Shown: piece by piece, positions 4,268-28,175 of the stretch
Layout: each line of letters opens with the position of its first letter
Position numbering within the stretch: position 1 is the first letter of the stretch
NCBI GenBank assembly: GCA_022573815.1
Contig: JACZTG010000017.1
Span: 1-45,560 of the forward strand
Length of the DNA stretch: 45,560 nucleotides
Source of the DNA: Candidatus Neomarinimicrobiota bacterium
Lineage (GTDB): Bacteria; Fidelibacterota; SORT01
Direction: 5' to 3'
The notes under the pieces: model-generated
Seen by the model: only the letters and a program-made list of their open reading frames with translations
What the model was told of the DNA's origin: nothing
Databases searched by the model: none
Translations under genes and position numbers: made by a program

Positions 4268-6748
4268 TTATTCTTCAGACGAATCCGCGGATTCATTTTG
4301 TTCTTCTTCCGACTCAGTTTCAACCCTTTCCATCACGCGTGTCACCGATGCGATGGAATCGTTTTCATCAATTCGAATTAATCTTACGCCCTGTGTGGCT
4401 CTTCCGATTTCTCTGATTTTTCTAACCGGCTGTCTGATCATTATTCCGTTTTCGGTGATAATCATCAGGTCGTCGCTGTCAACAACTTCTTTTATTGAAA
4501 GCATTTTTCCAACCTTTTTGGAAGTCCTGATGGTCAGCACGCCCTTTCCACCGCGATTTCTCGGTGGGTATGCATCAATGCCTGTCCGCTTACCATATCC
4601 GTTCTCGCTGACTGCCAACACCGTACCCGCTCGTTTGATGACAATCATTCCGATGACCCTGTCTTTGTCATTTTGGAGTCTCATTCCGCGGACGCCACGA
4701 GTTTTCCTGCCCATGGGACGAACATTCGTTTCTGAAAACCTTATAGCTTTGCCGTTTTGCGACCCGAGAATTATATCCTGTGTGCCGTCGGTAAGCCTTG
4801 CTTCAATAAGCTTATCGCCTTCCTGTATATCAATAGCATAAATTCCACCCTTCATCGGTCTTTTATATGCAGAAAGAATCGTTTTTTTGACAAGTCCGTT
4901 CTTAGTTGCCATCAGGATAAAATGTTCATCGTCAAATTCTTTTACCGCCAAAAACGCCTGTGGGTTTTCTTCTTTATCCAGTTGCAGAATATTTATAATT
5001 GCCCGCCCCCTTGAAGCTCTTCCCGCCTGAGGAACCTCGTGCACTTTAAGCCAGTGAACCTTTCCTCGATCAGTAAAAATCAGTAGGTGGTGGTGGGTGG
5101 ATGCCACAAAGAGGTATTCAATAAAATCGTCATCCTTTGTGGAGGCGCCCTTTAGTCCCCTTCCGCCTCTTCCTTGTCTTTTAAAACCGCTTACCGGAAA
5201 TCTCTTTATAAATCCTTTATGGGAAATTGTTATTACCATATCCTCTTCGGCAATCATATCTTCGATAGAGAATTCGCCTTCATCGGCAACAATATCTGTT
5301 CTTCTATCATCGCCGTATTTTTCGCTTATCTCCTTAATATCTTTTTTCACCATTTCCATGCGCAGTTTCTTATTATCGATTATCGAACTCAGCTTTTCAA
5401 TCAATTTGAGGAGTTCCTTATATTCATCTACAATCTTTTTCTGCTCTAAATTAGTGAGAGATTGGAGTCGCATTTCAAGAATTGCCTTCGCCTGAAGCTC
5501 GGAGAGCTTAAACGATTTTATCAAATTACCACGTGCGTCTTCCGGAGATTTCGATTTCTTAATTACTGCTATAACGGCATCAATGTTATCGAGCGCTATC
5601 TTCAAACCCTCAAGAATATGAGCCCGTTTCTCTGCCTTTTCTTTATCGAATATGGCGCTTTTAAGAACAATATCATGCCTAAATTCAATAAAGGGTAAGA
5701 GGGATTCCTTTAAATTTAGTACTTTTGGTTGCCCATCCACGAGCGCCAAGAAGTTCACTGCAAACGAAGACTGGAGCTGGGTGTGCTTAAACAGCTGATT
5801 GATTACAACATCCGGAATCACATCTTTTTTCAGGTCCATCACTATCCTTATGCCGTCCCTGTCAGACTCATCGCGAATATCTCTGATTCCTTCGATAACC
5901 TTGTTTCTTACAAGATCTGCCGTCCTCATGATGAGATTTGCCTTATTTACCTGAAAGGGTATCTCTGACACAATAATTGCCTCTCTGCCGTTCTCACTCA
6001 CTTCAACGCTTACTCTTGATCTAATTTTTATGCTGCCGCGGCCGGTTTTGAGAGCGTCCGCGATTCCTTTTCTACCATATATAATACCTCCCGTTGGAAA
6101 ATCGGGGCCGCTTACAAATTTTATAAGCTCGTCAATTTCTATATCGGGATTGTCTATCATTGCAACAATGGCGTTTGAAATCTCCCGTAAATTATGCGGA
6201 GGTATATTGGTTGCCATTCCGACTGCGATGCCGCTTGCGCCATTCATATGCAAGTTCGGAATACGTGTCGGAAGAACAGAGGGTTCTTGAAGGGTGTCAT
6301 CAAAATTCGGTACAAACTTCACCGTATTTTTATCAATGTCGTGCAACATTTCTTCTGCAATATGATGCATCTTGGCTTCGGTGTATCTCATCGCGGCGGC
6401 GCCATCTCCATCAACAGAACCAAAGTTTCCCTGACCCCTAATCAGCGGGTACCTCAATGAAAAATCCTGCGCCATGCGCACCAGGGAATCATATACCGCC
6501 GTGTCTCCATGCGGATGATATTTACCCAATACTTCACCTACAATTCTTGCGGATTTTTTAAACGACCTATTTGCCCTGAGACCCAAATCATCCATACCGT
6601 ATAAAATACGCCTGTGAACGGGTTTTAAGCCGTCTCTTGCATCGGGAAGCGCCCGTGAAACTATTACTGACATAGAATAATCGAGATAGGAGCTTCTCAT
6701 CTCGTCTACAATATCTATAGGTAATATATTTTCTCTCTTAATGTCCAT
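4268..6748 (-). CDS. gyrA: DNA gyrase subunit A
   Basis: GyrA is the DNA-cleaving subunit of gyrase, which introduces negative supercoils. The 826-residue protein has the catalytic tyrosine at Tyr122 (AMRYTEAKM), the same number as in E. coli. The quinolone-determining region [10 protein letters not shown] places Thr83 and Asp87 at the positions of E. coli Ser83 and Asp87. The GyrA box QGRGGRG at 525-531 identifies it as GyrA rather than ParC; the usual form is QRRGGKG, so this is a slightly variant box. Six C-terminal blade repeats follow, then a very acidic tail (last ~20 residues). It follows gyrB by 20 bases and is the last of the dnaN-recF-dciA-gyrB-gyrA series. No parC or parE is in the window. 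Confidence 0.98.
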
Positions 6749-24988: not shown

Positions 24989-26350
24989 TTGCCACTAAAT
25001 TATGATCAGAACGCACCACATAACAATCTCTGGGTCGGATGCCTCAATTTTATAAAAACGAATGTTAGTGAACAGTCATATGAAACATGGTTTAAGCCGA
25101 TCACACCCGTCAATATTGAGGGAAGTGTATTAACACTTCAAATTCCCAACAGATACCATGTTGAATGGATAGAAAGTCACTATAGCGAAGTTTTACGGTC
25201 AGCTCTCGGTAATTTGGGATACCCGGAAGTTGTTTTAAATTATGTAATACCCTCCGATTCGCCTACGGCGGAATCATTTAATTCTACAGAAGAATCTATA
25301 GCGAGATCTAAAGACGATAAAAGCGGACTTAACGACCAATACACATTTGAGATGTTCGTGGAGGGCTCCTCTAATCAATTTGCGAGAGCCGCCGCCCAGG
25401 CAGTAGCCAATGCTCCAGGAAAAACTTCGTTTAATCCGTTATTTATTTATGGCGGTGTGGGGCTTGGAAAGACTCATCTCGCACAGGCTATCGGCAATCA
25501 CGCGAAGGCCACCGGTACGGCTGAACGCGTTTTATACGTACCAAGCGAAATATTTACAATTGATTTTATTAATTCACTTGAAAAAGGAAAGGTCGAATCA
25601 TTTAAAAAATATTATCGCAGTATCGACCTCTTGATATTGGATGATATACAATTCTTCATCAATAAGGAACAAACACAGGAACAATTCTTTCATACTTTTA
25701 ATGCCCTATATCAGGATGGAAAACAAATCGTTCTTACTTCGGATACGCCGCCTCGCGACCTACTCGGAATGGAAGCGCGCTTAATATCCAGATTTCAAGC
25801 AGGTCTGTCGGCGGATGTGCAGGAGCCGGAACTTGAAATGAGAATTGCAATCTTAAATCGGATGGCAATGGAAAACCATATTCCGATTTCCCCTGAGATA
25901 ATCGAATTGTTCGCCACTAATATCAAAGGAAATATTAGAGAGCTCAAGGGGTCTCTGATACGACTTCTCGCCTATGCATCACTTTCCTCTGCTGAAATTG
26001 ATTTATCTTTAGCGCATAGAGTTCTTAAAGAGGTTCTCGGCAGCTCAAAGGTTCATACAACAATTGAAGATATAATAATTTATGCCGCGCAGGAAAATGA
26101 TGTGGAATCCAATGCGATAATAGGTAAGGGTCGCCAAATGGAAGTTGCCGCCGCTCGACAAATTGCGATGTATCTTTCTCGAATTTTGACCGGGCACTCT
26201 CTTAAAACAATAGGTCTTCACTTTGGCGGAAGAGACCATAGCACAGTAATACACGCCTGTAAGTTGGTGGCTCGTAAAATTAAAGAAGATACGGAATATC
26301 GGGACAGAGTTGAGCACCTAAAAAAGAAGTTAGAGTATAATTCAGTTTAG
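24989..26350 (+). CDS. dnaA: Chromosomal replication initiator protein DnaA
   Basis: DnaA is the AAA+ protein that binds and opens the origin. The 453-residue protein has domain I (about 13-88; LWVGCLNFIKTNVSEQSYETWFKPI), a short acidic linker (about 90-115), the AAA+ domain with Walker A GGVGLGKT at 155-162 and Walker B LLILDD at 214-219, a sensor/box region around SRFQAGLSADVQ, and the DNA-binding domain IV ending with the signature LHFGGRDHSTVIHACK. The start is TTG at 24989, with GAGGT about 10 bases and AGGA 3 bases upstream; the region before it has no in-frame ATG that is better placed. It is transcribed away from rpmH and is followed 141 bases later by lexA rather than by dnaN. Confidence 0.98.
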   Translation: MPLNYDQNAPHNNLWVGCLNFIKTNVSEQSYETWFKPITPVNIEGSVLTLQIPNRYHVEWIESHYSEVLRSALGNLGYPEVVLNYVIPSDSPTAESFNSTEESIARSKDDKSGLNDQYTFEMFVEGSSNQFARAAAQAVANAPGKTSFNPLFIYGGVGLGKTHLAQAIGNHAKATGTAERVLYVPSEIFTIDFINSLEKGKVESFKKYYRSIDLLILDDIQFFINKEQTQEQFFHTFNALYQDGKQIVLTSDTPPRDLLGMEARLISRFQAGLSADVQEPELEMRIAILNRMAMENHIPISPEIIELFATNIKGNIRELKGSLIRLLAYASLSSAEIDLSLAHRVLKEVLGSSKVHTTIEDIIIYAAQENDVESNAIIGKGRQMEVAAARQIAMYLSRILTGHSLKTIGLHFGGRDHSTVIHACKLVARKIKEDTEYRDRVEHLKKKLEYNSV

Positions 26351-26424
26351 TTTCATACTGATTCAATAATTAGTTCCAAAATTTCATCAAGCAGTTTCAA
26401 ATCAATAGAGTATCATAAAAGAGC

Positions 26425-26453
26425 TTGACATACGCCATTTGTACGCCTATACT
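26425..26453 (+). promoter_or_regulatory. Strong sigma70-type promoter of lexA-dinB
   Basis: TTGACA (26425-26430), exactly 17 bases, then TATACT (26448-26453): a near-consensus promoter. Transcription would start near 26460, about 30 bases before the lexA start. The strength and the overlapping repeats suggest a promoter held down by a repressor. Confidence 0.85.
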
Positions 26454-26462
26454 ATATACGCA
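26431..26462 (+). promoter_or_regulatory. Candidate LexA operator: TACGC repeats and an imperfect palindrome over the lexA promoter
   Basis: The promoter spacer is bounded by two TACGCC copies (26431-26436 and 26442-26447, 11 bases or about one helix turn apart), and a third TACGC occurs at 26457-26461. In addition a 17-base imperfect palindrome, GCCTATACTATATACGC (26445-26461; arms match 6 of 7), covers the -10 element. LexA normally represses its own gene, so one of these is probably its operator; neither resembles the E. coli CTGT-N8-ACAG or Bacillus GAAC-N4-GTTC boxes. Confidence 0.5.
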
Positions 26463-26491
26463 TTCTGTTCACCAATTGAAAAGGAGATATT

Positions 26492-27100
26492 TTGGCGCTT
26501 ACACAAAAGCAGAGACGTGTCATTGATTATATCGGGAGCTTTCAGGAACTCAACGGATATTCGCCAAGCTATGAAGAGATAGCAAACGGACTTGGCTATC
26601 GTTCGAAGGGAACAGTCCATAAGCACCTAAAACACCTCGTTGAGAAGGGGATGATTACCAAACAATGGAATAAAAGCCGCTCTATAGATATAGTTCAGCA
26701 GTTAGAAAAAAGTAATGCCGTAAGTCTGCCACTGCTGGGATTGGTCGCCGCCGGCGAACCTATTGAAGCTATATCCGATCCGACAGAGTCTGTTAATGTT
26801 CCGGAAGATATGATCGGCATTGGAAATCATTATGTGTTGAAAGTTCGGGGAAATTCCATGATTGATGAGCAGATTCGTGATGGAGATTATGTAGTGGTAA
26901 AAGAACGATCAACTGCCGAAAGCGGAGAAACTGTGGTTGCTTTAGTGGGCGGTGAAGAGGCTACAATAAAAAAATATTATCCTGAAAACGGCAAAATACG
27001 CCTTCAGCCGGCGAATGATAAAATGCTGCCCTTTATTTTACCGGCACATAATGTGAAGATACAGGGAATCGTAATAGGAATTCTCAGAAAATATAATTAG
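26492..27100 (+). CDS. lexA: SOS repressor LexA
   Basis: LexA represses SOS genes and cleaves itself when RecA is activated by DNA damage. The 202-residue length equals that of E. coli LexA. The N-terminal winged-helix domain (about 1-70) includes the recognition segment NGLGYRSKGTVHKHLKHLVEKG. The cleavage site is Ala87-Gly88 (VAAGEP), and the catalytic pair is Ser122 (RGNSM) and Lys160 (EATIKKYY), so self-cleavage capacity looks intact. The start is TTG at 26492 with AAGGAG 5 bases upstream, which fixes the start. It has its own near-consensus promoter with repeats and is followed 16 bases later by dinB. Confidence 0.97.
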   Translation: MALTQKQRRVIDYIGSFQELNGYSPSYEEIANGLGYRSKGTVHKHLKHLVEKGMITKQWNKSRSIDIVQQLEKSNAVSLPLLGLVAAGEPIEAISDPTESVNVPEDMIGIGNHYVLKVRGNSMIDEQIRDGDYVVVKERSTAESGETVVALVGGEEATIKKYYPENGKIRLQPANDKMLPFILPAHNVKIQGIVIGILRKYN

Positions 27101-27116
27101 TCAAAATTAATTTCTA

Positions 27117-28175
27117 TTGAATAAAATTGCGCATTTGGATCTTGACCAATTCTTTGTAGCAGTTGAAAGAATAAAAGACCCAAACTTAGTTGGAAAACCG
27201 GTTGTAGTAGGTGGTAGTCCAACCGGTAGGGGCGTCGTTGCTTCCGCATCATATGAAGCAAGAAAATATGGCATACGTTCAGCTATGCCAATGTATCAGG
27301 CATTTAAATTATGCCCCCATCTCATCAGAGTCGGGGGTAGTCATGGTGAATACTCGAAATATTCACGATCGGTATTTGGAATTGTAAATGAATATTCATC
27401 AAATGTTGAAAGAACAAGTATTGATGAAGGGTATATTGACCTTTCCGAATCTAAGCGCAAGAGCAAATTACCTGCAATTGAAATTGCAGAAGAAATAAAA
27501 CTTCGAATTGCCAAAGAGCTTGGATTACCGGCATCGCTTGGAATTGGCACAAATAAAATGATGGCAAAGATAGCTTCGAAACACGCCAAACCGGAAGGAA
27601 TATTAGAGATACTTCCCAATATGGAAGAAATATTTCTCGAGCAAATGGATGTGGGAATTATTCCGGGAGTGGGGCCAAAGACAAAAGAGAGGCTTAAAAA
27701 TATCGGTGTAAATTCGATAAATGAATTAAAGAAGATTAGCGAAAAAGAACTAATCAGTAGATTTGGTATTCACGGCGAAGGGTTATATAAAAGAGCAAGG
27801 GGAATATCAGGTAATCGGCTTGAAATAAGCCGCGAGAGAAAGTCTATCAGTAAAGAACGTACATTCAACAAAAATATATCCAATCCGTCCGGTCTTGATC
27901 AGACTTTAAGAAAGTTGAGTGAAGGGATATGCGATTTAATGAATGACAAAAAAGTCAAAGCCAGGGGAATCGGAATCAAAATGCGTTATGAAAATTTCGA
28001 AACCATTACAAGATCAAAAACTCTTTCAAGGGGGAATAACGATAATATATTATTATTTGAAGTTGCGAAACAGATGATTTATTCAAATTTCAAGCCGGGA
28101 AGAAGCGTTCGTCTAATAGGGATAAAAGTCTTTACTTTCGAGCCGAGGGACATTCAAACAGAATTATTTGCCTAA
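27117..28175 (+). CDS. dinB: DNA polymerase IV (Y-family translesion polymerase)
   Basis: DinB copies past damaged bases with low fidelity. The 352-residue length matches E. coli Pol IV (351). The Y-family catalytic acids are Asp8 (HLDLDQF) and Asp103-Glu104 (SIDEGYIDLS; the usual form is SIDEAYLD, so Ala to Gly here). The palm/fingers segment GRGVVASASYEARKYGIRSAMP, the thumb helix-hairpin-helix (IPGVGPKTKERLKNIG) and the little-finger domain are present. The C-terminus ends QTELFA, a clamp-binding motif for the beta clamp. The start is TTG at 27117 without an evident Shine-Dalgarno; translation may depend on coupling to lexA, 16 bases upstream, with which it forms an SOS operon. Confidence 0.96.
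   Translation: MNKIAHLDLDQFFVAVERIKDPNLVGKPVVVGGSPTGRGVVASASYEARKYGIRSAMPMYQAFKLCPHLIRVGGSHGEYSKYSRSVFGIVNEYSSNVERTSIDEGYIDLSESKRKSKLPAIEIAEEIKLRIAKELGLPASLGIGTNKMMAKIASKHAKPEGILEILPNMEEIFLEQMDVGIIPGVGPKTKERLKNIGVNSINELKKISEKELISRFGIHGEGLYKRARGISGNRLEISRERKSISKERTFNKNISNPSGLDQTLRKLSEGICDLMNDKKVKARGIGIKMRYENFETITRSKTLSRGNNDNILLFEVAKQMIYSNFKPGRSVRLIGIKVFTFEPRDIQTELFA

Follow-up and report, generated by a model that had tools for sequence, protein, structure and literature searches.

A predicted direct-repeat LexA operator at the lexA-dinB promoter of Candidatus Neomarinimicrobiota

The window, a 45,560-nucleotide stretch of contig JACZTG010000017.1 from a 2.39-Mb draft genome of a Candidatus Neomarinimicrobiota bacterium (Fidelibacterota; assembly GCA_022573815.1, here G000), carries lexA and dinB behind a near-consensus promoter. 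The LexA operator is known to change between lineages, and the locus raises the question of which sequence LexA recognizes here. A preliminary description had proposed a new operator type, consisting either of TACGCC direct repeats around the promoter spacer or of a palindrome centered on the -10 element. The coordinates it gave for the promoter, the TACGCC and TACGC copies and the palindrome all proved exact when checked against the sequence. The features of the region are as follows.

24989..26350, + strand: dnaA, named from its sequence, adjoining the lexA promoter on the upstream side and resembling the dnaA beside lexA in relatives
26425..26430, + strand: -35 element TTGACA of the lexA-dinB promoter, kept as TTGACA in G001 and as TTGACT in G002
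26431..26447, + strand: predicted LexA operator 1, TACGCC-ATTTG-TACGCC, filling the spacer between -35 and -10 exactly
26445..26461, + strand: imperfect palindrome GCCTATACTATATACGC, real at this place, not conserved
26448..26453, + strand: -10 element TATACT of the lexA-dinB promoter, 17-bp spacer to the -35 element
26457..26473, + strand: predicted LexA operator 2, TACGCA-TTCTG-TTCACC, over the expected transcription start
26481..26486, + strand: ribosome-binding site AAGGAG of lexA, recognized in the sequence by eye
26492..27100, + strand: lexA, 202 aa, TTG start (NCBIfam TIGR00498, 193.5 bits, cut-off 110.95)
27117..28175, + strand: dinB (DNA polymerase IV), 352 aa, in a co-transcription unit with lexA (PRK02406, 333.9 bits, cut-off 256)

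The promoter (TTGACA-17-TATACT) scores 11/12, and lexA and dinB are separated by 16 bases. The LexA protein passes the TIGR00498 model with both an N-terminal LexA winged helix-turn-helix and a C-terminal S24 peptidase above cut-off. Its cleavage site, Ala87-Gly88, and the Ser122 and Lys160 dyad are invariant in the alignment, giving a canonical LexA with a complete autoproteolysis site. The adjacency of dnaA and lexA (24989-28175 in the window and at seven further loci) is kept across at least three families of the phylum, with dinB following in family f1, which places the replication initiator beside the SOS repressor. At one of these loci, in Candidatus Neomarinimicrobiota bacterium D37C9, lexA lies at 5936-6532.

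Operator 1 consists of two TACGCC half-sites, at 26431-26436 and 26442-26447, in the same orientation and with a period of 11 bp. The third TACGC copy of the preliminary description is real, but it is the left half of operator 2 (TACGCA, 26457-26462), whose right half, GTTCACC at 26467-26473, had been overlooked. Operator 2 starts 26 bp after operator 1, and this spacing is identical in G001 and G002, relatives with lexA from two other genera of the window family. The lexA promoters of these relatives, TTGACA-TACGCTTTTTGTACGCT-TATAAT-ACG-TACGCATTTTGTTCACT in G001 and TTGACT, TGCGGTTTTTGTTCACT, TATTAT, TACGGTTTTTGTTCACT in G002, align over the whole stretch, and the counterparts of operator 1 read TACGCT-TTTTG-TACGCT and TGCGGT-TTTTG-TTCACT, respectively. 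Genera g1, g2 and g3 of the family thus all keep both operators before lexA, 26 bp apart. In the right half-site, TTCACY often takes the place of TACGCC, and the predicted half-site is TWCRCY (TACGCY or TTCACY), arranged as a direct repeat spaced by 11 bp. The box was also found before lexA in several other families. Family f7 (G010 and G015) has no clear box before lexA despite an almost identical LexA helix; the imuB of G010 has TTCACT-TTTTG-TTCACT.

A search of positions 26350-26500 bore out the earlier remark that E. coli- and Bacillus-type boxes are lacking. Neither the E. coli (CTGT-N8-ACAG) nor the Bacillus (GAAC-N4-GTTC) palindrome is present, and the Geobacter, Bdellovibrio, Bacteroidetes, Leptospira and Fibrobacter boxes gave no match. 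The same interval contains no exact GTTC-N7-GTTC, so that the lexA promoter does not carry the alphaproteobacterial box in its literal form.

To look for further targets, we built a weight matrix from eight sites, all of them in lexA promoters (G000, G001, G002, G025 and G014), for which exact calculation gave a chance expectation of 0.23 sites of at least 20 bits per genome of the size of the window genome. Its top scores fell before a second Y-family gene, with 24.7 bits in G000, 20.1 bits in G001 and 25.2 bits in G002, in all three at a constant position, in reverse orientation and just downstream of a TTGACA promoter. This gene is without catalytic acidic motifs when inspected by eye and is, judging from its sequence, ImuB-like. 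In G002, G003 and G004, sites of 20-24 bits also precede a short second dnaE, and the corresponding promoter of G000 has one as well. This hutI-side promoter reads into the short second dnaE (996 residues in G004), which is distinct from the housekeeping dnaE (~1,150 residues) and which we took to be dnaE2 because in other families of the phylum the homologous gene comes after lexA and imuB in a single lexA-imuB-dnaE2 operon. In the window family, imuB and dnaE2 are separate and have an operator or operator pair apiece. At every dnaE2 promoter, a TTCACT-N5-TTCACT site lies upstream against the -35 element and a second site, reversed, covers the start. The G000 contig ends 371 bp past the hutI-side promoter and dnaE2 is absent from the assembly. 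A box also precedes the dinB of family f9. The scan of imuB and dnaE2 promoters that had been suggested as a check found the box with a matrix trained without them, and the repeat has the sequence properties of a direct-repeat operator: like half-sites of equal orientation 11 bp apart, present before lexA in relatives and before other SOS genes.

Operator and dnaE2 are separated by leaders of several hundred bases, which contain palindromic repeats of the form CCCCTCCTTTTTAAGGAGGGG. G002 has a second, nearly full-length dnaE2-like copy on contig C55, which is without a box in the 373 bases upstream.

We also searched five genomes of the window family with the repeat pattern itself, against a reversed-pattern control. 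Among the matches listed, those with at most one mismatch all lie at lexA, imuB, dnaE2 (the hutI-side promoter) or a Cys-rich gene, while with three mismatches the pattern was hardly commoner than the control in these genomes. The Cys-rich gene was located as follows.

G000 C5:20234-20710: Cys-rich gene (L218, L248), with counterparts on G001 C89, G002 C24 and G003 C27

It encodes ~160 aa with the motifs CPLCG...CGAHEN...CFxCxxCR and was found only in the window family. Its promoter is flanked by two convergent LexA-type boxes in four of four genomes, and we predict it to be an undescribed SOS gene. The matrix trained on lexA promoters also picks out the box before this gene, and at imuB, dnaE2 and the Cys-rich gene alike the box is kept throughout the family. 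The protein has no family above cut-off in Pfam, NCBIfam or PHROGs, and its AlphaFold model, built from four sequences, has a mean pLDDT of 46.

Two kinds of match were discarded. Those of the type of C7:19933 lie within coding sequence at ~16 bits, which is background. The match at C1:145139 of G000 sits by tRNA genes and is common to G002 C19. There, at C19:1434, an identical stretch lies beside different tRNA genes with an integrase adjoining in G002, and the shared stretch is probably the end of an integrative element common to the two genera rather than a promoter.

The preliminary description had also named recA and uvrA as genes before which the motif should be sought, and had tied its proposal to the motifs occurring upstream of recA and of lexA in close relatives. 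The direct-repeat operators are present before lexA in these relatives, but no box was found upstream of recA or uvrA in the window family, and both were rejected as targets. The thpR-recA unit is without a box in G000 and G002, and a 14.5-bit match near thpR of G001 is at noise level; the best score upstream of uvrA was 5.7 bits. Most genomes of the phylum have recA behind thpR, a gene of the RNA ligase/phosphodiesterase family. As recA has no LexA box, the SOS response apparently does not induce the gene that triggers it.

We then asked how widely the 11-bp period occurs by counting exact hexamer repeats at offsets of 7-25 in the regions upstream of lexA. Offset 11 was found in 19/30 genomes of the phylum (0-4 at other offsets) and in 26/80 named genomes of other lineages (1-8 at other offsets), and coding and far-upstream controls showed no peak at offset 11. 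Held-out loci fetched afterwards gave the same picture, with offset 11 in 19/30 Acidobacteriota and in 39/60 further genomes of the phylum, and 0-5 at other offsets in both sets. Many families of the phylum have TACGAG as the repeat; Acidobacteriota and Nitrospinota have TTCGCC, and Gemmatimonadota TTCGGG. One promoter from Terriglobia (L116) reads TTCGCC-ATTTG-TTCGCC-TATGAT, which is the design of the window with T for A.

These spellings were compared with the recognition helix of LexA, SKGTVHKHL in the window. Two positions stand out, which we take to be residues 41 and 45 in E. coli LexA numbering from an alignment to that protein. Helices of the form SxATV (Ala41) go with TTC half-sites (33 vs 1 with TAC), and those of the form SxGTV (Gly41) with TAC half-sites (17 vs 0 with TTC), as read by a half-site scan that accepts only TAC or TTC and is thus even-handed between the two and blind to others. 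Fisher's test of residue 41 against TTC/TAC gave p ~3e-12, a naive value computed with 16 instead of 17 that ignores kinship. At residue 45, Glu goes with TTCGG (GGG end), Lys with TTCGC or TACGC (GCC end) and Trp with TACGAG (GAG end). In the held-out Acidobacteriota, 26/26 sites were TTC with C at position 5, one of them with a TAC right half, and all 31 sites found for held-out Trp45 proteins were TAC. The Lys45 and Trp45 rules were upheld in these 90 further loci, while the Glu45 rule rests on the original loci. About 18 of the 49 held-out Trp45 LexAs of other families gave no match in the simple repeat scan; these, eight of which we noted individually (from f22 and other families), may have a differing box or a promoter further upstream.

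One genome, G025, encodes two LexAs with a box type each, the Lys45 protein with TACGCCTTTTGTTTACT and the Trp45 protein with TCTTACGGGTTACTTGCGAG. Its imuB-dnaE2 has TCTTGCGAGTAACTTACGAG, which is the type of the second LexA. Lys45 and Trp45 paralogues also coexist in G139, G147 and G176. In many genomes of families f5 and f6, the match is confined to a short S24 peptidase segment (residues ~75-200) and does not take in a LexA-type DNA-binding domain; for these we propose UmuD-like proteins or replaced SOS regulators.

The association of helix and half-site, whose counts ignore shared ancestry, is the strongest argument from sequence for a direct reading of the repeat by LexA. The TACGCC direct repeat is very probably the binding site (SOS box) of the LexA of this lineage; binding, repression and induction we infer from sequence. 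A different regulator with imuB and dnaE2 also among its targets, such as DnaA or an unknown repressor, could in principle bind the repeats, given that dnaA adjoins the lexA promoter and that LexA binding is a prediction. We regard this as very unlikely, since the half-site tracks two recognition-helix residues of LexA across phyla, the targets are classical SOS genes, and the box types of the two-LexA genome match both of its proteins.

The -10 palindrome is a poorer candidate. The majority of LexA boxes are palindromic, and the window has a single match to GCNTATA-N3-TATANGC, allowing one mismatch, against 0.08 expected, so that LexA might bind these 17 bases as it does the boxes of E. coli and Bacillus. 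However, the palindrome borrows its arms from the last bases of operator 1, the -10 hexamer and the first bases of operator 2, and neither G001 (GCTTATAATACGTACGC) nor G002 (ACTTATTATATATACGG) has it intact, although both retain the direct repeats. At the imuB and dnaE2 promoters it is the direct-repeat box that is present, and no matching palindrome was noticed there. This part of the earlier proposal was therefore dropped as scarcely credible; from the aligned sequences, the palindrome is read as a by-product of operator 1, the -10 element and operator 2. That the repeats arose by chance around a strong constitutive promoter has a negligible probability: TACGCC-N5-TACGCC occurs exactly once in the 2.39-Mb genome, at the lexA promoter, and with up to two mismatches is not commoner genome-wide than its reversed control, but the fixed spacing is conserved in three genera, held-out sites of 20-25 bits lie at SOS promoters and independent genomes show the sharp peak at offset 11.

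With the direct repeat as the LexA box, LexA bound to both sites of the lexA-dinB promoter, the one in the spacer and the one at the start, would keep RNA polymerase away from it. Upon DNA damage, RecA filaments would trigger self-cleavage of LexA at Ala87-Gly88 and free the promoters, switching on lexA-dinB, imuB, dnaE2 and the small Cys-rich gene in a mutagenesis-centered SOS response without recA or uvrA. For a symmetric LexA dimer to sit on a direct repeat, one DNA-binding domain presumably turns on its linker, as in Alphaproteobacteria.

These results suggest an SOS box, and with it a minimal SOS regulon, for Candidatus Neomarinimicrobiota (Fidelibacterota), a phylum with very few cultured members (we found none in the open-access literature searched). 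The predicted regulon is centered on mutagenesis, comprising lexA-dinB, imuB, dnaE2 and one unknown gene, with recA and uvrA outside it. We found no LexA motif for Marinimicrobia/Fidelibacterota in the literature searched, from which subscription papers were largely absent. The co-variation points to a two-residue code that can be read off the protein; with it, the SOS boxes of uncultured bacteria could be predicted from their LexA sequences.

Direct-repeat LexA boxes as such are already known (PMC8565304, PMC7739468, PMC3323433). The earlier proposal of a direct-repeat operator over lexA-dinB as the box of the lineage is strongly supported by its conservation in the family, the held-out imuB and dnaE2 sites and the co-variation with the helix, but not its novelty as an operator type, since the alphaproteobacterial GTTC-N7-GTTC is also a direct repeat with an 11-bp period. 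The upstream dnaE2 operators described here (GTTCACT-N4-GTTCACT) even fit that motif literally. The consensus half-site here differs, being TACGCY with TTCACY as an alternative, and so does the recognition helix, SKGTVHKHL as against SKSGIHRLI in an alphaproteobacterial LexA (L138). A lexA-regulated imuA-imuB-dnaE2 cassette is cited in PMC3323433; the same gene set stands under the box here, but imuB and dnaE2 lie apart in the window family. The Balneolaeota motif TTACACATATTTTWTACATA is a direct repeat too, with a network of lexA and Y-family polymerases (PMC7739468), but its period reads as 13 bp rather than 11 and its regulon includes recA. The LexA motif of Patescibacteria (Sanchez-Osuna 2017, per PMC7739468) and the LexA box of Acidobacterium capsulatum (Mazon 2006, per PMC7739468 and PMC3323433) are also cited as direct repeats. 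The Patescibacteria lexA promoters that we examined often have TTCGG/TTTGG repeats, a GG-type half-site often accompanied by Glu45, unlike the window. Those of Acidobacteriota have TTCGCC-N5-TTCGCC, in L116 with the same spacer, ATTTG, as the window; their half-site is TTC with Ala41, whereas that of the window is TAC with Gly41.

Direct-repeat boxes have been described as arising independently several times (PMC7739468). We lean somewhat towards the view that the direct-repeat operators of Fidelibacterota, Acidobacteriota, Gemmatimonadota, Nitrospinota, Patescibacteria and others form one family with a simple code, in which residue 41 (Ala/Gly) sets TTC/TAC and residue 45 (Lys/Glu/Trp) sets the GCC/GGG/GAG end. 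If so, direct-repeat LexA boxes would represent a single design, widespread and perhaps ancient, and not several independent inventions. The box of the window is a new spelling of this known direct-repeat design, in which only the half-site is new, and not a new class of LexA operator.
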